DNA from: a virus
Length of the DNA stretch: 64,000 nucleotides
IMG/VR virus record: IMGVR_UViG_3300031758_000010
Coordinates: 62,001-126,000 of that record
Direction: 5' to 3' (one strand)
Shown: piece by piece, positions 3,001 to 62,111 of the stretch
How positions within the stretch are numbered: position 1 is the first letter of the stretch
How the letters are laid out: every line of letters begins with the position of its first letter
Program-made: the position numbers and the translations under genes
The notes under the pieces: model-generated
The model's database searches: none
What the model saw: the letters and a program-made list of their open reading frames with translations, nothing else
What the model was told of the DNA's origin: nothing

Positions 3001-4145
3001 GTTTGTGTCCGTGTAGGAGTTTGGGTGTTAGTAGGGGTTTGACTCTTAGTTGGAGTTGATGTTTGGGTCGGTGTTTGAGTTGGTGTTTTAGTTTGAGTTG
3101 ATGTTTGTGTTGGTGTTTGTGTTTGGGTAGGGGTTGGGGTAGGAGTTGGTGTTGAACATACAATAGAGTTACTCAACAGACAGGTAGGACAATCTGTTTG
3201 TAGAGTAATTGTATCGGTTATACCGTAATTATAATTGTTTAATGCTGTACTAATTGATGTTGTAAATGTTGCACAACCAGTATAACTTGAATTGGTTATG
3301 TAATAAACGTTGTTATTTACCAAACCTGTAAATATTATATTTGGTAAATTAAATATTTGAAAAGAATTATTTGGAGGGCAACAATCTAAGAAAAATGCGT
3401 TCTCAGGCGGATAACTAGTAGGTGTGGGTGTTGGTGTTTTAGTTTGAGTTGGTGTTTTAGTTTGAGTCGATGTTTGTGTAGGTGTTTGAGTTGATGTTTG
3501 AGTTGATGTTTGTGTAGGTGTTTGTGTAGGTGTTTGTGTTGATGTATTTGTGGGAGTATTAGTTTTAGTTGGTGTTGATGTTTGGGTTGATGTTTGGGTC
3601 GGTGTATTAGTTGGTGTACTGGTTTTAGTTGGAGTTTGAGTTTGAGTTGGAGTAGGTGAATTATTAGGAGTTGGGGTTGGAGTTGATGTTTGTGTTTGTG
3701 TTGGGGTTTTAGTTTGAGTATTAGTTGGAGTTGATGTTTGTGTTTGGGTTTTAGTTTGGGTGTTAGTAGGTGTCTGTGTTTGTGTTGGGGTTTTAGTTTG
3801 AGTTTGTGTTTGAGTATTGGTTGGAGTTTGTGTTTTAGTTTGAGTATTAGTAGGGGTCTGTGTTTGTGTTTGTGTTGATGTTTTTGTGGGTGTTTGTGTT
3901 TTTGTTGGAGTGGGTGTTTGTGTTTTTGTTGGAGTGGGAGTTGGAGTCGGGGGAAGTAGAGTAAAGTTACAACCTAAACCATAACCTTCAAAATAAACTT
4001 CATATGTACCATAGATATAATCCGCAGTATAGTAATACGGTATTAACTGAGGTCCAATATTTACAGTGCCACCTGTATAAGGATAAAATATAATATCACC
4101 TATTTGACCATTAAAATTATTGGAACTTATTAAAACTGTTGGCAT
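1..4145 (-). CDS. Giant Thr/Pro-linker adhesin or tail-fibre-like protein, C-terminus beyond window
   Basis: Reading the minus strand from the ATG at 4145 I find no stop codon down to base 3, so at least 1381 codons are open and the protein runs off the window. It starts MPTVLISSNN, like the short protein at 11675-11890 (MPTVVTINDL). Globular, Cys-containing segments alternate with three linkers made almost only of Thr and Pro with Gln, Lys, Asn or Ser. No enzyme motif was recognised. It lies downstream of the protease and two similar proteins and has its own late-type box at 4161. Such modular, linker-rich proteins fit a distal fibre or host-surface adhesin; this is inference from composition and context. 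Confidence 0.75.
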   Translation of the reverse strand, partial: MPTVLISSNNFNGQIGDIIFYPYTGGTVNIGPQLIPYYYTADYIYGTYEVYFEGYGLGCNFTLLPPTPTPTPTKTQTPTPTKTQTPTKTSTQTQTQTPTNTQTKTQTPTNTQTQTQTKTPTQTQTPTNTQTKTQTQTSTPTNTQTKTPTQTQTSTPTPTPNNSPTPTQTQTPTKTSTPTNTPTQTSTQTSTPTKTNTPTNTSTQTPTQTPTQTSTQTSTQTPTQTSTQTKTPTQTKTPTPTPTSYPPENAFFLDCCPPNNSFQIFNLPNIIFTGLVNNNVYYITNSSYTGCATFTTSISTALNNYNYGITDTITLQTDCPTCLLSNSIVCSTPTPTPTPTQTQTPTQTSTQTKTPTQTPTQTSTPTKSQTPTNTQTPTRTQTRTQTPTQTQTPTPTAFCLGDCISIYRTGIWNSTFQPDPNYFIRIIAVDAPSLTTIELPIPDNSYEFGYPAFDIAMSSNKIWVIQRVLDVLPARIIINEINYTRCPFVATFSKRFYYGSIGHQRGFASFDEGGLSRLVLVGNNAFFPNQVFEITPSSIPNLGDATSSAVLRFSYTAGFGNNNNPYGTSDNPCNPNRGIFVYDFIVTDTTPRKFIAVLGCSTMEPIEEQKRVLVQYDYYTGVIETLVDITSFFPISGVNPIMETAEGLFYENGFYYVISYTGRIVQVEASNPLNISYLGDVNTYYTNPLQYNPPDAASVYSCVTEVFAVSTPTPTPTPTQTQTPTQTKTPTNTSTQTPTQTQTSTQTSTKTSTQTPTQTSTPTKSQTPTKTQTQTPTQSQTPTKTQTPTNTSTPTPTPTNPYQPPVILDDCFILVNTSTKIYYFNPIGNTLSEIIIPGFFNSEDIAHYWDPGSQTGKLWLYGGPGSGNIFIREWIITSLTPFTVGSFRDISFPPGISFLGKGLVAVNSNTLIGSETLVNPNRIIKITLNPFPNNTSSFVSMFNLPGSLLTPNTVTGDILLTTNNKVIFTQTNPGTPTFFYITQHDYITNLRDFPEIQIGCTNCPNPPTPNITDANAIYQINNEFYFIDQSTGDVFNVNSDPPYTATTTFNIGVTGVKGASQSPQCIGRSFTGSSPFWQVQNVVGSNPMEVRQDFGSGTKKFYVDLGDGQTFGVNLPNTTTHTTSKTYNSALYTATFADYQLNGIFQTSGTIGAITFRRISKVIDNPGTFDSWSSISNLRFEFCTFSNLSGIDVVNSVFTRIGFFNHNNPNLELNSFNLSSRIRINNFQIWNSNFTDFSHNLSSWTSVNILFVLFADTQLVNFTLIPPPGLRDFQVYNSSGQNNLKFFDAPNGLLSCTTLENVNFDRNRLTGWTYNFPASVKTISMVQNRDTGNPLLFGLSSFTINLTSNTLLQTLDLNNNRINTFTNTIISCTSLITLNLS
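1747..2019 (-). repeat. Thr-Pro linker tract, third in the truncated fibre gene
   Basis: Low-complexity coding repeat of TPTQ, TPTK and TSTQ units. The coding strand here is almost only A and C, so the plus strand is almost only G and T. Units of 6 or 12 bases keep the frame. Confidence 0.85.
2958..3153 (-). repeat. Thr-Pro linker tract, second in the truncated fibre gene
   Basis: Same A/C-only coding repeat as the other tracts. It separates two globular segments of the protein encoded from 4145. Confidence 0.85.
3418..3952 (-). repeat. Thr-Pro linker tract, first in the truncated fibre gene
   Basis: About 175 residues of alternating Thr-Pro and Thr-(Gln/Lys/Asn/Ser) pairs, beginning roughly 65 residues after the start codon. 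Confidence 0.85.
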
Positions 4146-4160
4146 CTATACGTTTTGTAT

Positions 4161-4168
4161 TATAAATA
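4161..4168 (-). promoter_or_regulatory. Late-type promoter box TATTTATA for the gene starting at 4145
   Basis: The minus strand reads TATTTATA 15 bases before the ATG at 4145. It differs by one base from the T4 late box TATAAATA and recurs before many genes in this window. Confidence 0.5.
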
Positions 4169-4178
4169 CTTTATTTTT

Positions 4179-5447
4179 CTAATTACACTGATTTGATGTT
4201 ATTGTAAGTCCCATTTGATAATAAGTTTGACCACTGCAATTCACCATATATGAATTAGTTGTACCTGTAACCGTTACAAATTGTATTGTTGTTGGGTCAA
4301 CTAAATTTTTTAATGAACCGTCCCAAGCTTGAATACCTAATTCACTAGCCACATGGTCAATTCTACAGGCAAAACCAAAATTTCCTCCACCCGCAAAATT
4401 TAAACCAACAATTTTCCAAATTCCACTAAAGTCGGCGATAAGAGCTGAACCTGAATCACCTCCAGCTATTGGGTTTAGACATAAAGATGATAAACTTGGG
4501 TCGTTTTCGGGTCTAACAAATGCTATTAAATCTGAAAAATAAGCCGTGACAATATTACCTTGCATTTTATACCCACTAATTGGTTGAGTGGTGCCCAAAG
4601 AATAAACTCTTAAAGGACACGTTGGAGCTTGTTTTACGCCGGTTGTTCTTCCACTACTATATAGTATTGGATTTGTACTTAATAATAAATCAATTTCTGC
4701 GGTACTGGCAAATGGGATTGGAGTTGTGTTTCCTGTTAGTCCGTATTGTTTATAAGATTCGGTTAAACTTAAAATTGGAGTCCCACTTAATGATATTAGA
4801 GCACCATCTACTTTATTATTTGTTGTGAACCCCAAGTAAATTGGTACGTATCTTACTACTTGACCTATAATGTTTTGAGGAGGGCCCAAAGGACTTTCAC
4901 CGGGTTGGTACGCTAAATCTACTTCTAATGAGCCGTTATCGTTTAAATTATATTCATTAAAAATAACTCCACCCAAATTTCTTTGTGTTGTGTAAAAAGC
5001 ATCTTTTATTACCACATGATTATTTGTAACCCCCACTAAACTCTGTGTTGCAATATCTACGGCAACAAATCCCAAAGTACCAACAAACCCTAATTTACTT
5101 TTAGACGTTAAAGAAATGCCACCCTGAACTGGCCTGATATATAATCTATTAGGAGGAGGATTAGTTATCCAAAGATTACATTGAGGATTACAAGCTAATA
5201 CCTCAATTTCACCAACTTCAACAACATCCATAAAGTAAGTTTTATTATCGATAGTAATTGGTTCATTTGGTAAAATTTCCTCAGGAAATAAATTAGATAA
5301 TTTTTTTTTCTCAGGTACAAAAAATATTATGGATTCTTTTCTAGTATCAATACCATTTGATATTTTGAATCCATAACCAACACCTACATTATTTGGGGTT
5401 TTTAGGTTAAACTCCTCTATAATTTTTTTTAAATTTTCTGTTAACAT
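4179..5447 (-). CDS. Trypsin-like (chymotrypsin-fold) serine protease in the fibre locus
   Basis: The 422-residue protein shows a serine protease triad pattern: His in TNNHVV (about residue 144), a candidate Asp in EVDLAYQ or KVDGALI, and the Ser motif GGDSGSALI (about residue 330). GDSGS is diagnostic for the S1/trypsin superfamily. There is no signal peptide; the first 100 residues are a separate N-terminal region. It sits in the fibre operon, 5 bases after the 1223-residue protein, so it is probably made late and virion-associated. Possible roles are processing of the neighbouring fibres or digestion of host surface protein; the sequence does not decide. Protease call firm, role unknown. 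Confidence 0.82.
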   Translation of the reverse strand: MLTENLKKIIEEFNLKTPNNVGVGYGFKISNGIDTRKESIIFFVPEKKKLSNLFPEEILPNEPITIDNKTYFMDVVEVGEIEVLACNPQCNLWITNPPPNRLYIRPVQGGISLTSKSKLGFVGTLGFVAVDIATQSLVGVTNNHVVIKDAFYTTQRNLGGVIFNEYNLNDNGSLEVDLAYQPGESPLGPPQNIIGQVVRYVPIYLGFTTNNKVDGALISLSGTPILSLTESYKQYGLTGNTTPIPFASTAEIDLLLSTNPILYSSGRTTGVKQAPTCPLRVYSLGTTQPISGYKMQGNIVTAYFSDLIAFVRPENDPSLSSLCLNPIAGGDSGSALIADFSGIWKIVGLNFAGGGNFGFACRIDHVASELGIQAWDGSLKNLVDPTTIQFVTVTGTTNSYMVNCSGQTYYQMGLTITSNQCN

Positions 5448-5452
5448 TTTTT

Positions 5453-8400
5453 CTAAAAAGGTTTTGAATTAAATTTAGTAAATATTGTGTTTATATTAGT
5501 TGGTATATTAGTAGGTGTTAAAGTTGGGGTAATTGTTGGAGTTGGTGAAGGAGGGTTTATGTTTACACAGTATAACCTAAAATTGTAATCTGCGGTTGAT
5601 GTGTAACCGGACCCCAAAATTGTTGATATTACTTTTACATATACTTCGGATGGGGAAGAAATGTTCTTCATAAAAGTTGAAAATCCTGTAGAACCTCCGG
5701 CAATTGGAGAACCATTTAAGTATTCTACCCATGGACCATATAATAGAGCGTTATCAGACCTAAAACCAGTATCTATAACTATTTGGTTATTCCAATATAC
5801 TATAAACCTATCAGGGTATGTATTAGCGCTAAATTCAAAGTAAACTTGACCTATTTGAGAGCCTAAATTGTATTTAAATAGGTTACTTCCCATGTTATTT
5901 GTAGGTGAAATTAGATTTCCGCAGTTAACCAAATAATCTTGATAACAATTTATTTTGGTCACGGCGTTTAACAATGGAACATTTACACCATTATTATAGT
6001 AGTATAAGTTTGACCACGAACTAATAGAAACCCCTATAGAATTCGGGGAGTTTGTATATGTTCCGGCCGATGAGAAGGCTGAAGTATATATATTACCATC
6101 ACAACCTAAATATTGTAAATAAACCCTACCATTCCAAACAGGTACTGAATTTCCAACTGCATTGTCTAACATTTGTTGTGTTATGGTTACTTGCCAATTA
6201 AAACAACCATTATTACAATTATTTGGTGTTAAAGTTGGAGTTGGTGTAACAGGTATCGGGTTAAAACTAGAACAAACAATTTCCATCGTAGAACCCCCAA
6301 GAGGGCTACCGTCTGAATAATTAAATGTTAAACTAGTATAAGGGTTTGGTGAGGAAATTTTATATTCACCACCACCAGTACCAGGTTCTGGTAATGTTGC
6401 AATAGTGTTACCTGAAATTTCTTGATAACACCATGGACCAACTAAAGTTATTGTAACCGGACCTGAATCACTCGTCACTACAAAAGTTTCTCTACTTGAC
6501 CAACCAATAAAGTCAGACATAGTTATTCTGAAAACTAAATTATTCATTGGTTCACTAAAATTCAGTGTGTATAATGTTGGAGTACATTCAATTGGACCAC
6601 CTGGAGGGTTCTCTCTACAACCTATCCATACAGTATCTGAGTTTTCGTATACACAACTAGTGTGAGTCCATAATTGTTCCGCATAACCACTACCAGTGGC
6701 TGTTATTAATATCCCGTAATAATTTACATAACCACCAATAACAGGTAATTTACCTACACAACCAACTGGGGTTTGTGTTGGTGTTGGAGTTGGGGCGATA
6801 TTATAACAATAGTTTTGACGTGTAAAGGCAGAATTTACATAAATTGTAAAATTATTTTGAGTATAATAAACTTGCGGAGTTCCACCTAAAGGGACACCTG
6901 ATAAATTAGGATAATTATTATAAACTCCTGAACTAGTATAATTTTGAATTTTTTGTAATCCATCACATCCTACCCATCTTACATAAATAAGTCCATTAAT
7001 AATTGGATTAGTATTACCAGATGCACTTAAAATATATTCCTCTAATATATTTACCGTCCAAGCAAAACAATTTTGACAATTATCTCCATTAGTAGGCGTT
7101 ATTGTTGGTGTTAATGTTGGTGTTGGTGTTAGAGTTGTATCTATAATCTCAACAACTAAAATATCACATTCAGGGTCCGGAGTCGGAGTCGGGGTTGGCG
7201 TAGGAGTTTCGGTTGGGGGAGGGCTCTTTTCTGGTGTTAATGAAGGTGTTTGTGTTTGTGTTGGTGTTTGTGTTTGTGTTGGTGTTTGGGTTGATGTAGG
7301 AGTTTGACTTTTTGTAGGAGTTTGACTGTTTGTTGGAGTTTGAGTCTGGGTATTTGTAGGTGTGTTAGTTGATGTTTTTGTTGGTGTTTGTGTTTTAGTT
7401 TGAGTTGGAGTGTTGGTTGGAGTCTGACTCTGAGTTGGGGTATTTGTCGGAGTTTGAGTTTGTGTGTTGGTTGGTGTCGGAGTTGGAGTTTCTGATACTT
7501 CAGGTGTTCGTGTAGGAGTTTTAGTTTGGGTTTGAGTTTGGGTTTGAGTTGGAGTATTGGTTGGTGTTTGTGTTGATGTTGGTGTTTGTGTTTGGGTATT
7601 AGTTGGTGTTTGAGTTGATGTTTTTGTTGGTGTCTTAGTTGGTGTTTGAGTCTTAGTTGGAGTTTGTGTTTGAGTAGATGTTTTTGTTTGAGTTGGGGTG
7701 GATGTTTTAGTCGGAGTATTACTCAGAGTTGGATTTGGAGTTGGTGTTTGCGTAGGTGTTTCAGTCGGTGTTTGAGTTGACGTAGGAGTTTGAGTTTTTG
7801 TTGGTGTAGGGGTTTTTGTTGATGTTTTTGTTGGGGTTGGAGTTGGTGTTTCTGTGGATGTATTAGTTGGCGTATTTGTTGGAGTTTTAGTTGATGTTCT
7901 TGTTGGTGTTGGGCTATCAGTTGGTTGTGGTGTTGGGGTTGGAGTACTTGTTGATGTTGGAGTTTCAGTTTTAGTTGGAGTTGGAGTTTTAGTATTAGTT
8001 GGAGTTTTTGTTGAAGTTTTTGTAGGGGTTACTGTTGGCGTCGAAGTTTTAGTTGGAGTTTTAGTTTGAGTTGGACTTATTGTGTTTGTTGGGGTATTAG
8101 TTTGAGTCGGAGTCTGAGTTTTAGTTGGAGTTTTAGTTTGAGTTCTGGTTTGAGTTTGTGTTTTAGTTTGTGTTGGGGTTTGAGTTACGTCAGGAGTCGG
8201 AGTTTGTGTTTGAGTCGATGTTTTAGTTGGAGTTTTGGTGGGTGTTTGTGTTCTAGTTTCAGTTCGTGTTTGTGTTTGTGTTATTGTATTTGTGGGAGTA
8301 TTTGTTGGGGTTTGAGTTGTTGTTGGGGTTTGAGTATTAGTTCTTGTTGGAGTTCTTGTTGGAGTTTTTGTAACACAAAATGTTTGAGTTGGAGTTGGTG

Positions 8401-9124
8401 TTGGTAAATCGTTATTGGTAGGTGTTTGAGTTTTAGTTGTGGTAACAGTTGGAGTTACGGTATTTTGAGGAGTTTTTGTTTGAGTTCTAGTCTTTGTAGG
8501 TGTTTGAGTCCTTGTTGTTGTATTTGTAGGAGTTTTCGTTGGAGTTGGAGTTTTTGTAGGAGTTTTTGTTTGAGTCTGAGTTTTTGTTGGAGTTTTTGTT
8601 TGAGTTTGAGTTATGGTCGGAGTTTGTGTTACGGCTCCTGGAGCTCCTCCTGGACAACAATAAGATGTTGTTGAACATTCTGCATTAGGCAATAAAAATT
8701 CCGTAAAATTTGTAGGGTAATCCTCGGTACTAAAAGAAATATCCTGAACTAAACCACAAAAAGTGTATTCAACTAAATTAATAGGGTCCAAACAATTTGA
8801 TAAACATATTGTAATACGCCATAAATCAAAAGGTTGTGTGTTGGTACCTAAGGTGACATATCTATTAATACCAGCACAACAATCGTATACCTCGAAAACG
8901 TCTTGAGGGATAAATGATTTAAAATTTTGACAATCGGAAGCAACTAATTTTACCCCTACTTCAGGAGAATTTTCATAAGGGTAGGGTACTGTGATATCTA
9001 TTGGTTTTGATGTGTAAGTAATAACTCTTGAAACAAATACACAATTTTCACCATTTGGTTCACAAACATAAATGTCATAAGGTGCCGTTAAACCTGATAT
9101 GTCTGTTATTTTAACTGTTGCCAT
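5453..9124 (-). CDS. 1223-residue Thr/Pro-linker fibre or adhesin-like protein
   Basis: Order of parts: an N-terminal domain (residues 1-75, [10 protein letters not shown]) homologous to the 71-residue protein at 11675; a second Cys-rich domain; a Thr-Pro linker of about 480 residues; then Cys-rich modules joined by short TPTPT spacers. Two modules are clear internal repeats, each with a CF.W.V pattern, a GN..P..NG motif and a GCDG motif (about 680-775 and 985-1080). No enzyme motif seen. The gene overlaps the stop of the upstream gene by one base (TAATG), so the two are probably translationally coupled. Surface adhesin or fibre role is inferred from modularity and context. Confidence 0.75.
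7180..8632 (-). repeat. 1.45 kb Thr-Pro linker repeat, coding strand almost only A and C
   Basis: Encodes about 480 residues of [12 protein letters not shown] and TNTP units inside the 1223-residue protein. The longest such tract here. Slippage or unequal recombination in 6-base units would change linker length without breaking the frame. Confidence 0.9.
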
Positions 9125-41365: not shown

Positions 41366-41551
41366 ATGAGAGGTAAAATTCTATCTGAAGAACAATTTAA
41401 AGATAAGTTAATCCAAATTTATAATGAGGAGAAACATTCTTTGGTCAAAGAAAAAATTCAAATGTATGTTGAAAAAAGAAAGTCTTCCGTTAACGAAGAG
41501 GTTCAAGATTCATTAATAACATTGAAGAATATTTTTGGAGGTAAAAAGTAA
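41366..41551 (+). CDS. Small tagged helical protein
   Basis: 61 residues, MRGKILSE-EQFKDKLIQI: short tag ending LSE, then a charged helix. Its last base overlaps the start of the DHH gene (TAATG), so the two are coupled. It may be a small internal protein or a partner of the phosphoesterase. Confidence 0.6.
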   Translation: MRGKILSEEQFKDKLIQIYNEEKHSLVKEKIQMYVEKRKSSVNEEVQDSLITLKNIFGGKK

Positions 41552-42951
41552 TGAAAAAAATACTCTCAGAAAGTGGTATAAGAGATATCAAAGCTTTATC
41601 TCAAAGATATCCAAAGGCTGAAATATATTTTCACCAAGACCTTGATGGGGTCACTACGGCCATAGCCATGAAATCATATCTTGAACAACATGGTATTGAG
41701 GTAATTGACGCTCACGTAATTCAATATGGTGACAAAGAGTTTTCAATAAAGAAAAACGACGCAACAGGTGATGTGATGCCGGTTCTTGTTGATTTTGCCC
41801 ACGGTAAACCAATGTTCGTTATTCATACTGACCACCACGATAGACAAGCTGGCGCCGAAGATACCAAATCAACATCTTTCAGACAATCTCGTTCAAATGT
41901 AGAGACAATATCACAGATTGTTTCACCTAAAGAAATATTTCCAGAAAAAGATATTTTATTAATTTCAACAGTTGATTCTGCCAACTTCGCAAAATATGAT
42001 ATTACTCCTGAACAAGTAATGAATTATTTGTTTAAGTTTGATAAAGACTCGTCATTATTAAAGAATAAAATGGCGATGGGTATGGTTGCTAATAAATTAT
42101 TATTGGCGTTTAAGAACAAACCTGGATTCTTAGAAAGATTAGTTATGGAATCAACTCCATCTTTAACTAATATTCTTGTTAATATAAGACAAATTATGAA
42201 GGAAAAGGGATATGCTGATATTCCCGAACTTGAAAAACATAAGGAGGATTATGTTCAAAAAATGAAGAGTTATCCTGAAGTATCTAATAATATAATAGTT
42301 CAATACGGTGGTGGTAGTATGATGAAACCAGGTTCATATGATAGATATACACCATTTAGAAATAACCCTGAGGCGGACTTTTTAGTTATTGCCTGGCCAA
42401 TGGGACTGTTACAGGCTTCTTGTAATCCATTTAAAAAAGATAGAGAATTGAAAGGTGTTAACTTAGGTGATATTGCCCAAGAGGTATTATCTAAATGGGA
42501 AGGACAATTAAAGGACAGACAAATACCACTATCAACTATCAAATGGATATCTGAAGACGTTAAAGGTTTTGGACCTGAGTCAGTTGGATTTACCTTCAAA
42601 GATTTTGTGGCTTTATATGGTAAGAACTATAAGTCAATGCAAAATGGAAAAGAAGAGTTGATTAACATAGGTAATTTGATGGAAAAACCATTTGAACAGT
42701 TGACCGATGAAGAGAGACAAATATTAGATGATGTTACGGTTAGTGCTTGGGATGTCATTCAATCCAATTCAGGGGGGCACAAATGTATTACAAACATTTC
42801 AGGTTTAATGTATATGGGAAGGTCCAATAGACCACCACAAGGAAAATACAAGTATGACCCCGAGAGAGAGGATTCCCCATACGTTAAATTTCTTAAGATG
42901 TTACAAAGAGAATTTGTTAGAGTATTACAGGAAAAGATTGGTCAGTCTTAA
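41551..42951 (+). CDS. DHH-superfamily phosphoesterase with N-terminal (I/L)xE tag
   Basis: 466 residues beginning MKKILSE-SGIRDIK. DHH-type motifs: FHQDLDGVTTA (about residue 29, the D-x-D-G motif), VLVDFAHG (about 79) and HTDHHDRQ (about 91). A C-terminal SGGHKCITN (about 409) matches the GGH motif of DHHA1-type domains. Such enzymes are Mn-dependent nucleases or oligonucleotide/cyclic-dinucleotide hydrolases; the substrate is not evident. The tag and the late box upstream suggest an enzyme packaged in the capsid, which is inference. Confidence 0.75.
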   Translation: MKKILSESGIRDIKALSQRYPKAEIYFHQDLDGVTTAIAMKSYLEQHGIEVIDAHVIQYGDKEFSIKKNDATGDVMPVLVDFAHGKPMFVIHTDHHDRQAGAEDTKSTSFRQSRSNVETISQIVSPKEIFPEKDILLISTVDSANFAKYDITPEQVMNYLFKFDKDSSLLKNKMAMGMVANKLLLAFKNKPGFLERLVMESTPSLTNILVNIRQIMKEKGYADIPELEKHKEDYVQKMKSYPEVSNNIIVQYGGGSMMKPGSYDRYTPFRNNPEADFLVIAWPMGLLQASCNPFKKDRELKGVNLGDIAQEVLSKWEGQLKDRQIPLSTIKWISEDVKGFGPESVGFTFKDFVALYGKNYKSMQNGKEELINIGNLMEKPFEQLTDEERQILDDVTVSAWDVIQSNSGGHKCITNISGLMYMGRSNRPPQGKYKYDPEREDSPYVKFLKMLQREFVRVLQEKIGQS

Positions 42952-43289
42952 TAGACTAATTCATCACCCTCTAATATACCTTTTTGTTTACAGGTTCCAC
43001 CCTTTACTTCTAAAACCATATCACCTTCACCACAATAATTCCTACATTCATCGTCTTTACATGGAAGACAATTGTGATGTATTTTTGTTATGATGTCATC
43101 TTTAATAAAAATGATATCCAAATTTATAATACAGTTATTCATCCAAAAACAATGTTCATCACTACCCATCATGAATAACATACCGTTAAAGTCTTTGTCG
43201 AATTTTTTACCCATCATACCTTTTTGGGTTTCTTTTTCCGACACTAAAACTTTAACTTTGAATTTAGTGTTATTTATACTTAACATCAT
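42948..43289 (-). CDS. DUF192 family protein with a Cys-rich insertion
   Basis: 113 residues. KVLVSEKETQKGMMGKK, GMLFMM, FWMNNCIINLDIIFI and GDMVLEVKGG are the DUF192 landmarks. An extra Cys-rich loop (NCLPCKDDECRNYC, about 75-88) may bind metal. DUF192 proteins are small and mostly secreted or membrane-linked in bacteria; this one has no signal peptide. Function unknown. Confidence 0.78.
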   Translation of the reverse strand: MMLSINNTKFKVKVLVSEKETQKGMMGKKFDKDFNGMLFMMGSDEHCFWMNNCIINLDIIFIKDDIITKIHHNCLPCKDDECRNYCGEGDMVLEVKGGTCKQKGILEGDELVY

Positions 43290-43300: not shown

Positions 43301-43433
43301 CTTTATGATATGAAAATGATTTATTTTATAAAATAATTAAGTTTTTTTGTTTAAAATTTAACTTTTTAATAATTTATACATATTTATACGAAAAATAAGC
43401 CCAACACCCCTTTCTAAATAGTTGGTTAAAACT

Positions 43434-43479
43434 AAACCCTAAAATTCCCCCAAAGATTTTTAGGGTTTTTGTTTTTTTC
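43434..43479 (+). terminator. Hairpin terminator upstream of smpB
   Basis: AAACCCTAAAA and TTTTAGGGTTT arms with a 13-base loop and a T run. It insulates the smpB promoter from upstream reading. Confidence 0.7.
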
Positions 43480-43480
43480 G

Positions 43481-43488
43481 TATATTTG
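43481..43488 (+). promoter_or_regulatory. Host-type -7 element TATATTTG before smpB
   Basis: TATATTTG 8 bases before the ATG. No good TTG at the -33 position. The leader would be only a few bases. Confidence 0.45.
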
Positions 43489-43496
43489 TACCCATT

Positions 43497-43928
43497 ATGA
43501 AAAATAAACTATCCATAGTTAATAAGAAAGCTCGTTATGAATATGAGTTTATTTCTACGTTCACTGCAGGTATCCAATTGATTGGAAGTGAGGTAAAGAC
43601 AATAAAAAAGGGTAAACTTTCAATAAATGACGCCTTCTGTATTTTTAAAGAAAATGAACTTTTTATTAAAAATATGGTTTTGACTGAGAAAGTTAATGAG
43701 TTTTCACCTGATGTTAAACGAGATAAAAAATTGTTGTTAAAAAAGTCCGAACTAAATGGATTGAAAAGAGATATGATTAAAGGACTAACAATAATTGTTA
43801 ATAAAGTGTTTGAAAATGATAAAGGGTTGATAAAAGTTGAAATTTCTCTTGCAAAAGGTAAAAAACTGTACGATAAACGTAATACAATTAAGGAAAGAGA
43901 ACTAAATAGGGACAAAAAATTTGTATGA
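43497..43928 (+). CDS. smpB: SmpB, tmRNA-binding protein
   Basis: 143 residues with the SmpB core throughout: NKKARYEYEF, FTAGIQLIGSEVKTIKKGKL (about 21-40), ELFIKNMVL, KRDKKLLLKKSEL and LAKGKKLYDKRNTIKERE (about 119-136). SmpB carries tmRNA to stalled ribosomes. It is a little shorter than host SmpB (about 150-160): the loop before DVKRDKKLL is compact and the C-terminal tail that folds in the ribosome is only a few residues after the RELNRD segment. No tmRNA gene was found nearby. It could commandeer host trans-translation or interfere with it; not decided by sequence. Confidence 0.9.
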   Translation: MKNKLSIVNKKARYEYEFISTFTAGIQLIGSEVKTIKKGKLSINDAFCIFKENELFIKNMVLTEKVNEFSPDVKRDKKLLLKKSELNGLKRDMIKGLTIIVNKVFENDKGLIKVEISLAKGKKLYDKRNTIKERELNRDKKFV

Positions 43929-43950
43929 TTGTAAATTATTCGTATATTTG
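43921..43950 (+). promoter_or_regulatory. Bacteroidota-type promoter before 43966
   Basis: TTG at 43921-43923, 19 bases, then TATATTTG at 43943-43950; ATG 15 bases later. It overlaps the end of smpB. Confidence 0.7.
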
Positions 43951-58381: not shown

Positions 58382-58693
58382 TTAAAAATAATATACAACG
58401 ATATCTGATTGAACATCAACCGCACTATAATGTGTGCCAGTTTTACTTTCAACCCACTTAGAAATTGCGGAAATAGCATCGATATTACTCAAAGAAAAGA
58501 AAGAAACGATTTCATCCATTAATTTTCTATCAATCGTACACCAATAACTATTGAATCTAATTTGAGCGTATTCATCTTTCTCTGAATTAAGGAAATAACC
58601 GTTTATTCCATACTCCATATAAACAAAGTCCTGATTATCCAAATACTTAAAGATTAGGTTTTCAATTTGAGATTCGGTGATTAGGTATTTCAT
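58382..58693 (-). CDS. Tandem paralogue, tag MKYLITE
   Basis: 103 residues from the ATG at 58693, the start supported by a late box 5 bases upstream. MKYLITE-SQIENLIFKYLD, then FLNSEKDEYAQIRFNSYWC and EIVSFFSLSNIDAISAISKWVE. An in-frame upstream extension exists but would precede the box. Confidence 0.65.
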   Translation of the reverse strand: MKYLITESQIENLIFKYLDNQDFVYMEYGINGYFLNSEKDEYAQIRFNSYWCTIDRKLMDEIVSFFSLSNIDAISAISKWVESKTGTHYSAVDVQSDIVVYYF

Positions 58694-58698
58694 ATGAT

Positions 58699-58706
58699 TA
58701 TAAATA
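58699..58706 (-). promoter_or_regulatory. Late-type promoter box TATTTATA before 58693
   Basis: Minus TATTTATA 5 bases before the ATG at 58693. Confidence 0.55.
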
Positions 58707-58718
58707 TAACGTATTACT

Positions 58719-59036
58719 CTATCTAACGTGTACTTCCCTAACATTCGTATCCAATTTATTTTCAACCCATCTACCGATAATATATTTAGAATCATTAAAG
58801 TCCAATGAAAAGAATGTGGTAATCTCATCAATCAATTCATGATTTATCCAACAATCACCATCTCGATAGAAATTAATTAATGAATCAGTATATAAATCTT
58901 CACTTGAATTAAGAAAGTGAATTATATTGCTAAACCCAAAAGACGTTTTAGGTGATTTTTTTATAATAAAGTCCTGATTATCGAGGTACTTAAAAACAAC
59001 ATTATCAAGCTTAGATTCGGTGATAAGATATTTCAT
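58719..59036 (-). CDS. Tandem paralogue, tag MKYLITE
   Basis: 105 residues, MKYLITE-SKLDNVVFKYLD, then NSSEDLYTDSLINFYRDGDC and EITTFFSLDFNDSKYIIGRWVENKL. The W-V-E ending and FFS motif are conserved across the family. Confidence 0.65.
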   Translation of the reverse strand: MKYLITESKLDNVVFKYLDNQDFIIKKSPKTSFGFSNIIHFLNSSEDLYTDSLINFYRDGDCWINHELIDEITTFFSLDFNDSKYIIGRWVENKLDTNVREVHVR

Positions 59037-59040
59037 ATGA

Positions 59041-59048
59041 TATAAATA
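59041..59048 (-). promoter_or_regulatory. Late-type promoter box TATTTATA before 59036
   Basis: Minus TATTTATA 4 bases before the ATG at 59036. Confidence 0.55.
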
Positions 59049-59378
59049 TTAGTTAGGAGTTCTTAAAGAAGAAACCATATCTTCAGTGACAAAGAATATG
59101 TTGGTAACCTTCATTTTTAAATTATTTTCAACCCACTTACCAATAACTTTTTTAGAATTAGATTCTCGCAGAGAAAAGAAGGAAGAAATTTCGTTAACCA
59201 ATTTATAAGATATAAAACACCACTCATCATTTTCATCATATCTAATCTGAGCATATTCATCATTTTCGGAATTAACAAAAAATAAACTAACACTATCGCC
59301 GACAACAATAAAGTCCTGATTATTCAAGTACTTAAAGATTACATTATCAATTTGTGATTCGGTGATAATATATTTCAT
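59049..59378 (-). CDS. Tandem paralogue, tag MKYIITE
   Basis: 109 residues, MKYIITE-SQIDNVIFKYLN, then FVNSENDEYAQIRYDENDEW and EISSFFSLRESNSKKVIGKWVE. Closest in the middle region to the member at 59719. Confidence 0.65.
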   Translation of the reverse strand: MKYIITESQIDNVIFKYLNNQDFIVVGDSVSLFFVNSENDEYAQIRYDENDEWCFISYKLVNEISSFFSLRESNSKKVIGKWVENNLKMKVTNIFFVTEDMVSSLRTPN

Positions 59379-59382
59379 ATGA

Positions 59383-59390
59383 TATAAATA
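59383..59390 (-). promoter_or_regulatory. Late-type promoter box TATTTATA before 59378
   Basis: Minus TATTTATA 4 bases before the ATG at 59378. Confidence 0.55.
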
Positions 59391-59400
59391 CTAGTTATAT

Positions 59401-59706
59401 CTATCTAATTATAATTTCTTTAACTCTTCTACCCAAAGTATTTTCAACCCATCTGGCAATAACATATTTAGAACCATCAAATTCCATAGAGAAGAATTCT
59501 GCAATTTCATTAATTAACTCAAAACTCATGACACACTCACCACCACTTCTATAGTATTGGATTAATCCGCCCGAAAATTCATCATTTTCTGAATTAACGA
59601 AGTAAGTTATATTATCACTATTCATTTTCTTAATAATAAAGTCCTGATTATCCAAATACATGAATATAAGGTTATCAATCTGTGATTCGGTGATAAGATA
59701 TTTCAT
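59401..59706 (-). CDS. Tandem paralogue, tag MKYLITE
   Basis: 101 residues, MKYLITE-SQIDNLIFMYLD, then FVNSENDEFSGGLIQYYRSGG and EIAEFFSMEFDGSKYVIARWVE. Resembles the member at 58719 in its middle strands, so two subtypes alternate along the array. Confidence 0.65.
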   Translation of the reverse strand: MKYLITESQIDNLIFMYLDNQDFIIKKMNSDNITYFVNSENDEFSGGLIQYYRSGGECVMSFELINEIAEFFSMEFDGSKYVIARWVENTLGRRVKEIIIR

Positions 59707-59710
59707 ATGG

Positions 59711-59718
59711 TATAAATA
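59711..59718 (-). promoter_or_regulatory. Late-type promoter box TATTTATA before 59706
   Basis: Minus TATTTATA 4 bases before the ATG at 59706. Confidence 0.55.
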
Positions 59719-60054
59719 TTAATTATAATAGGGTATTCTCAACGCAAACCACTTCGTGTTGTTGCGCCATTCGGTGTTTGTGACCTTCATTTGTAGTCTA
59801 TTTTCAACCCATCTACCAATAACTGGTTCAGAATCATAATGTGACATAGAAAAGAAGGTGGAAATTTCTTCAATTAATTTATAATGTACATAACACCAAT
59901 TATCATTTTTATCATATTTAATTTGAGCGTATACATCATTCACTGAGTTCACGAAGTATATTTTTTCATCAAAGTTAATCTGAATAAAATCTTGGTTATC
60001 CAAATACTTAAAGATTACTTTATCAATTTGTGATTCGGTGATTAGGTATTTCAT
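59719..60054 (-). CDS. Tandem paralogue, tag MKYLITE
   Basis: 111 residues, MKYLITE-SQIDKVIFKYLD, then FVNSVNDVYAQIKYDKNDNW and EISTFFSMSHYDSEPVIGRWVENRL. Overlaps the upstream gene by four bases (ATGA), so it is coupled rather than having its own box. Confidence 0.65.
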   Translation of the reverse strand: MKYLITESQIDKVIFKYLDNQDFIQINFDEKIYFVNSVNDVYAQIKYDKNDNWCYVHYKLIEEISTFFSMSHYDSEPVIGRWVENRLQMKVTNTEWRNNTKWFALRIPYYN

Positions 60055-60362
60055 TTGATTAATATTACGTCTATTGTTATACCATAAACTTCATACGGGG
60101 GAAAACCTGTATTGGGGCTATAACCACTTGTTTTAATATCCAAATAAGTCAATATTGTTCTCCTAATCTCACGTTCAAAATTTCGTTCTTTTAATTCGTC
60201 AGGGTTATAATGGTTAGGGTTGGTTATGTATGAATCATCAATATCATAAAAATAAACATCAATTAATATCTCATCATCATATTCACTCTTTCTAACTTTA
60301 ATCTTTTCAGGTGAGTATAACGATTCAATCAACTTAACAATGGCTTTAATTTTACTGTTCAT
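60051..60362 (-). CDS. Different protein inside the paralogue array
   Basis: 103 residues from the ATG at 60362, where a variant late box lies 4 bases upstream. MNSKIKAIVKLIE-SLYSPE contains LIE but no MKYLITE. The body (VDVYFYDIDDSYITNPNHY, ending YEVYGITIDVILIK) is unlike the paralogues. Unknown. Confidence 0.6.
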   Translation of the reverse strand: MNSKIKAIVKLIESLYSPEKIKVRKSEYDDEILIDVYFYDIDDSYITNPNHYNPDELKERNFEREIRRTILTYLDIKTSGYSPNTGFPPYEVYGITIDVILIK

Positions 60363-61562: not shown

Positions 61563-62111
61563 ATGGAACAAATGATGATTTACGGACTATATTGTCCGAA
61601 TACAAATAAGCCAGTATATGTTGGGCAATCAAAGGTGGGGTTATATAGACCCTTTGCACATATAAATGAGAAGTCACATAGTGATAAAGTAAACGAGTGG
61701 GTTAAGTTTCTAAAGAAGGATGGACAAAGTCCCGTATTAGTTATATTAGAACAAAACTTCCCAAACAAATATACAAATGATAAGGAGTTGTTTTGGATTA
61801 ATAAGTTCATCAATGACGGGAATGTATTACTAAATCAGGCGGGAATCAAACCATACTATTTCTATCACACGCAACTAAAGAACGAGAATGAGGATGATTA
61901 CCTATTAGAACTCAGGAACTTTGTGAAGACGAGGAGAAAGATGTTAAAGTTAAGTCAGAAAGAACTTGCTGAAAAGTCAGGTCTCGGACTACGATTCATT
62001 AGAGAATTCGAACAGGGGACAAAGACAAACTTCCAAACTGATTCAATATATCAACTGTGTAGAATGTTCGGACGTAATAAGATGTCAATTACATTTGTGG
62101 TAGATAATTAA
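61563..62111 (+). CDS. GIY-YIG nuclease domain fused to a HipB-type HTH
   Basis: 182 residues. N-terminal GIY-YIG-like part: MIYGLYCPNTNKPVYVGQSK with the paired Y-x-G motif, then an R in YRPFAHI and a Glu at NDKELFWINKF (about 76). C-terminal XRE-type HTH: RRKMLKLSQKELAEKSGLGL (about 123-142) then RFIREFEQG, like HipB. This could be a self-regulating nuclease or a regulator that uses the GIY-YIG fold for DNA contact. Host-type promoter upstream. The inverted repeat downstream begins inside its stop codon. Confidence 0.7.
   Translation: MEQMMIYGLYCPNTNKPVYVGQSKVGLYRPFAHINEKSHSDKVNEWVKFLKKDGQSPVLVILEQNFPNKYTNDKELFWINKFINDGNVLLNQAGIKPYYFYHTQLKNENEDDYLLELRNFVKTRRKMLKLSQKELAEKSGLGLRFIREFEQGTKTNFQTDSIYQLCRMFGRNKMSITFVVDN

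Follow-up and report, generated by a model that had tools for sequence, protein, structure and literature searches.

A phage-encoded SmpB predicted to work with host tmRNA, and a conserved candidate RNA element upstream of its gene

Phages carry pieces of the translation apparatus, and the locus described here raises the question of what a phage might do with SmpB when no tmRNA can be seen to accompany it. The window, by which we mean the whole 64-kb stretch of DNA analysed, runs from base 62001 to base 126000 of a viral record of 126,766 bp (G000). A first-pass annotation had read it as encoding an SmpB with a short C-terminal tail, under early or separate control, that could either recruit host tmRNA or act as a dominant inhibitor of host trans-translation. 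The features of the locus, in window positions, are as follows.

41551-42951, plus strand: syntenic neighbour with weak DHH-domain similarity (below cut-off)
42948-43289, minus strand: divergent neighbour, a DUF192 (COG1430) gene by Pfam PF02643 (78.9 bits) and synteny
43381-43387, plus strand: TATTTAT, a promoter-like box ahead of the candidate RNA, found in every carrier examined
43398-43478, plus strand: candidate small RNA gene with two hairpins (81.5 bits in the window with our covariance model R1)
43437-43478, plus strand: intrinsic terminator, which is hairpin 2 of the candidate RNA (stem CCCTAAAA/TTTTTAGGG at 43437-43465, then a T-run)
43481-43488, plus strand: TATATTTG, taken to be the Bacteroidota-type -7 box of smpB, with the ATG 8 nt downstream
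43497-43928, plus strand: smpB, from the ATG start to the stop at 43926-43928, 143 aa
43966-44241, plus strand: syntenic gene 3′ of smpB, function not assigned, with its own TATATTTG box at 43943-43950

The ORF at 43497-43928 is a true SmpB, and the coordinates originally given for it are correct. Specifically, i) the PF01668 SmpB profile matches it at 138.5 bits against a cut-off of 27 (E 2e-40), the alignment covering residues 3-137 of 143 and the full barrel; ii) SmpBs in the PDB match it in sequence, with E values down to 2e-30 for Thermotoga SmpB; and iii) an AlphaFold model (pLDDT 79.7) matches 21 PDB structures at E<=0.001, every one of them an SmpB or tmRNA-SmpB entry, the best match to an SmpB structure having an E value of 4e-13.

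The gene also appears to have been kept for a long time by phages. Comparison with five relatives gives dN/dS values of 0.014-0.083, indicating strong purifying selection, and a tree of 98 SmpBs places the window protein in an all-viral clade of 22 rows (SH-aLRT 97), which sits near the SmpBs of Bacteroidota and in which tmRNA-bearing and tmRNA-less records are intermixed. Because of these dN/dS values and the phage-only clade, smpB is not a recent host-derived remnant, and dN/dS likewise rules out a degenerate pseudogene. Nor does smpB lie beside ssrA in host DNA flanking an integrated prophage: in the 215-kb record described below its surroundings are replication, tail sheath, and baseplate genes, with no tmRNA among them; a host flank may, however, explain some of the weaker relatives in the viral collection. 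The kinship of the protein and the promoter box together suggest that the host is probably a member of the Bacteroidota.

The G000 record matches, at 100% identity, part of a longer record of 215,250 bp (G002), which encodes a DNA polymerase, DnaB-like helicase, primase, UvsX-like recombinase, tail sheath, and baseplate, and therefore represents a contractile-tailed jumbo phage. This record has no exact end repeat and carries repetitive sequence at its terminus, and so may be incomplete, in which case a tmRNA could sit in the missing DNA. Two regions of the window (3400-8700 and 58500-60100) are long and internally repetitive, and share 64-71% DNA identity both with one another and with further stretches of the 215 kb.

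The earlier observation that no tmRNA is visible holds within the window, which contains neither tRNA nor tmRNA, and a search for ssrA in the rest of the 215-kb record came up equally empty: ARAGORN found no tmRNA or tRNA in the 215 kb of this possibly incomplete record; an Rfam tmRNA search of the same sequence at permissive thresholds returned a single 13-nt, 10.6-bit match (G000:58360), which lies inside a long ORF and can be dismissed as noise; and a custom descriptor (acceptor stem plus T-arm) that recovered 15 of the 18 distinct control loci for phage tmRNA gave zero matches in G002. With its threshold at 75%, ARAGORN called dozens of false tmRNAs. The program missed 3 of 10 tmRNA loci that pass the Rfam cut-off, and the phage tmRNAs it did report at L084, L089, L090, and L091 encode varied short tags (EDALAFVDGEFALAA, ATSEVAVA, DDTTTYRMAA). 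Elsewhere, a tmRNA over the Rfam cut-off accompanies SmpB in 16 of 47 related viral records, where tRNA-like matches are common among the tmRNA bearers, and in Lak-A2 and Lak-B2, both deposited as complete genomes; none was found in three other SmpB-bearing huge phages (735, 634, and 642 kb). Among related Bacteroidota/Chlorobiota genomes, 7 of the 10 searched have a full-length tmRNA over the same cut-off.

How might smpB be expressed? The terminator noted in front of it is real, with a stem (CCCTAAAA..TTTTTAGGG) that covaries among relatives and a T-run, and the host-type -7 element reported there is likewise present at 43481-43488. We take TATATTTG to be a Bacteroidota-type (host-type) element by its consensus; the box is conserved before smpB in relatives as TAnnTTTG, and TATATTTG shows mild enrichment ahead of the phage's gene starts (5 seen, 0.55 expected). 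With its own promoter box after a terminator, smpB fits the separate control that had been suggested. TATTTAT, by contrast, is found 53 times in the 30 nt that precede ORF starts across the 215-kb record, where 2.5 would be expected, and is likely to be a phage promoter element; the small RNA therefore seems to be phage-type-promoted and smpB host-type-promoted. A scan for the sigma-70 consensus was uninformative (55 found, 49 expected).

The candidate RNA consists of two simple hairpins, the first a CCAAC/GUUGG stem with a near-invariant ACCCCUUUC loop and the second the terminator. It contains no ORF (43398-43478) and no tRNA-like domain (acceptor stem plus T-arm), as the custom descriptor does not match it; the window has no Rfam match at gathering score, and the site of the element none at E<=5. 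Model R1 scores carriers of the element at 57-90 bits and other sequence at no more than about 27 (26.6), with a single strong match per record. Among 22 distinct sequences, both-sided changes occur at 5 of the 9 pairs of the terminator helix, and hairpin 1 with its loop is nearly invariable; the structure as a whole shows 24 cells with both-sided changes where shuffles give 10.5, and it collapses in slid versions. Covariation is expected of any terminator; what is unusual here is that hairpin 1 is near-invariant and the position exclusive. Because the gene preceding it in the window lies on the opposite strand, the element is more than the trailing part of an upstream operon. Conservation between the window and L007 is indecisive by itself because two other spacers in that pair are 90-96% identical, and a separate spacer comparison is noisy owing to free end gaps; the case rests instead on distant relatives, the same arrangement preceding smpB in phages whose SmpBs are only about 50% identical. 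Copies of CCCCTTTCT elsewhere in the 215 kb (205952, 209110) form hairpins unrelated to the element.

Motif scans of IMG/VR made without SmpB as a query returned 18 and 8 contigs, and all 26 proved to be smpB contigs; the loci with the element are L007, L012-L022, L029, L250-L259, L301-L310, L312-L314, and L328-L333. No tmRNA was found in any of the 26 carriers (958 kb in total), but the p of about 5e-5 from a simple Fisher test overstates the case. All carriers compared share the gene order around smpB and form one family, so that neither their linkage to smpB nor their lack of a tmRNA counts as an independent observation. A covariance search of 396 Bacteroidota genomes was weak, scoring only 12 candidates per genome, and a pattern search was therefore used, which found the motif in 0 of the 396. 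The element is missing from L315-L327, which include the 318-kb record IMGVR_UViG_3300042465_005589 (L325), and in L311 only the 3′ half of its terminator is left upstream of smpB, an apparent loss; these relatives nonetheless keep smpB, which consequently does not need the element. We regard the element, about 75 nt long, undescribed, and absent from Rfam, as a candidate new RNA family, probably a base-pairing or protein-binding regulator.

The ACCCCUUUC loop resembles the 3′ tail of Bacteroidota 16S rRNA (AACACCUCCUUUCU), a similarity noticed post hoc that is only a lead; the tail sequence GGAACACCTCCTTTCT occurs in 16S context in L271. In Bacteroidota ribosomes the 16S 3′ tail is held by bS21, bS18, and bS6, and rpsU there carries an extended Shine-Dalgarno (PMC9976891). 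The exposed loop could mimic the 16S tail, or pair with G-rich sites, for instance the extended Shine-Dalgarno of rpsU in the host. The complement of the loop was not found in seven host tmRNAs.

Counted from the conserved GKK, the C-terminal tail of the window protein has 23 residues, as does that of Thermus SmpB (144 aa, by alignment with 1j1h); the 74 nearest bacterial SmpBs, nearly all from Bacteroidota, have a mode of 25 and a range of 21-30, and other phage SmpBs mostly have 24-25. The description of the tail as short does not survive this comparison, and as a sign of altered function it fares no better, since the decoding-centre residues are kept. The tail motifs read G121, K122, K123, L124, Y125, D126, K127, and R128, with Tyr125 at the position of E. 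coli His136 and followed by DKR. In E. coli SmpB, DKR is needed for accommodation and His136Tyr has only a minor effect (PMC4151336). A GGA-to-TGA change has cost the window protein two residues (GL), and sister phages without the change have an SmpB that ends two residues later with the same core; judged from these sequences, the loss in the window strain is recent. The gene product is most likely a functional SmpB, for which we predict both tmRNA binding and tagging.

These observations allow the alternatives to be weighed. A dominant inhibitor, occupying tmRNA or ribosomes without supporting tagging, has a model in E. coli tail mutants that retain tmRNA and ribosome binding but do not support tagging (PMC4151336), and the window protein does end about 6 residues before E. 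coli SmpB in an alignment made by eye; but a tail of the length found in Thermus and within the range of related bacteria, with Tyr and DKR kept, is neither missing nor mutated in the manner of a tail-deleted dominant negative, the sisters with their two additional residues have the same core, and relatives pair SmpB with tmRNA. Tail length and motifs thus give this first-pass proposal no ground in the sequence, and we consider it highly improbable. It is also unlikely, if less remote, that the phage has a tmRNA of its own in sequence absent from the 215-kb record, and hence an ordinary SmpB/tmRNA pair: the missing end repeats leave room for one, and the 16 related records and two Lak genomes with both partners show that such pairs exist, but none of the 26 carriers (the compared loci being one syntenic family) has a tmRNA, and the 215 kb lacks any tRNA whereas many tmRNA-bearing records show tRNA-like matches.

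The small RNA invites a further reading, in which it forms a functional unit with SmpB, regulating smpB or binding SmpB or the ribosome, and replaces a phage tmRNA. The recovery of smpB on every contig found by motif alone, the near-invariant loop and covarying terminator, and the tmRNA-free carriers would all fit; but linkage within a single syntenic family may be no more than inherited gene order, L311 and L315-L327 keep smpB with the RNA lost or absent, and the RNA has no tRNA-like domain, so we consider it unlikely. That the new RNA and SmpB together make up a jumbo-phage cassette for manipulating ribosome rescue in the host, with no phage tmRNA involved, seems to us similarly unlikely.

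We favor instead, with a probability of roughly 0.62, a long-kept, working SmpB that uses host tmRNA and has its own promoter, with a separate upstream small RNA as a companion. Since no phage tmRNA is detectable, SmpB most likely works with that of the bacterium, and recruitment of host tmRNA, one of the functions initially envisaged, is the best remaining reading, full-length tmRNAs being present in most of the related bacterial genomes searched; relatives that carry both SmpB and tmRNA point to trans-translation as the function of the phage protein. During infection, the host-type promoter of smpB would give rise to an mRNA with almost no leader; phage SmpB would bind host tmRNA, replacing or supplementing host SmpB; trans-translation would continue on ribosomes stalled at broken or decaying mRNAs; and the rescued ribosomes would go back to phage protein synthesis. 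The small RNA (75-80 nt, ended by the terminator) would be transcribed separately just upstream of smpB, as a conserved companion in this phage family that probably regulates by base pairing or protein binding. Against this reading, hosts already possess SmpB; the phage copy would presumably bring some advantage nonetheless.

Al-Shayeb et al. described both SmpB and tmRNA from huge phages in 2020 (PMC7162821), so that phage SmpB as such is known; SmpB alone is little new, and the new part is the linked, conserved RNA element. Like the SmpBs of huge phages and Lak phages, that of the window belongs to a very large phage and is related in sequence (45-54% identity to the SmpBs of LR756501 and the Lak phages); but a tmRNA over the Rfam cut-off is present in both Lak genomes tested and was not found in the 215 kb of the window phage, which has the RNA element upstream of smpB whereas the Lak phages have no such element near theirs. 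With bacterial tmRNA/SmpB trans-translation the window protein shares the fold, the tmRNA-binding core, and the decoding-centre tail motifs, and differs in being phage-encoded and in having its RNA partner missing from the record. Ribosomal protein bS21, encoded by large Bacteroidota phages (PMC9723584), is like window SmpB a phage version of a host translation protein, but a different protein acting at a different step; none of 11 SmpB/RNA-element records tested has bS21. Phage bS21 genes are present in several tmRNA-bearing SmpB phages (G004, G011, G021, G045). Mycobacteriophages, phage G, and the OM43 phage Melnitz encode tmRNA (PMC4131195, PMC9004378), and so, like the window phage, supply part of the trans-translation pair; they supply the RNA, whereas the window phage supplies the protein. 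Separating SmpB from tmRNA as it does, this phage family can reveal whether a phage gains by supplying host tmRNA with SmpB alone, and its smpB-linked RNA element is a concrete candidate, open to testing, for a hitherto undescribed family of phage RNAs that may act in translation.
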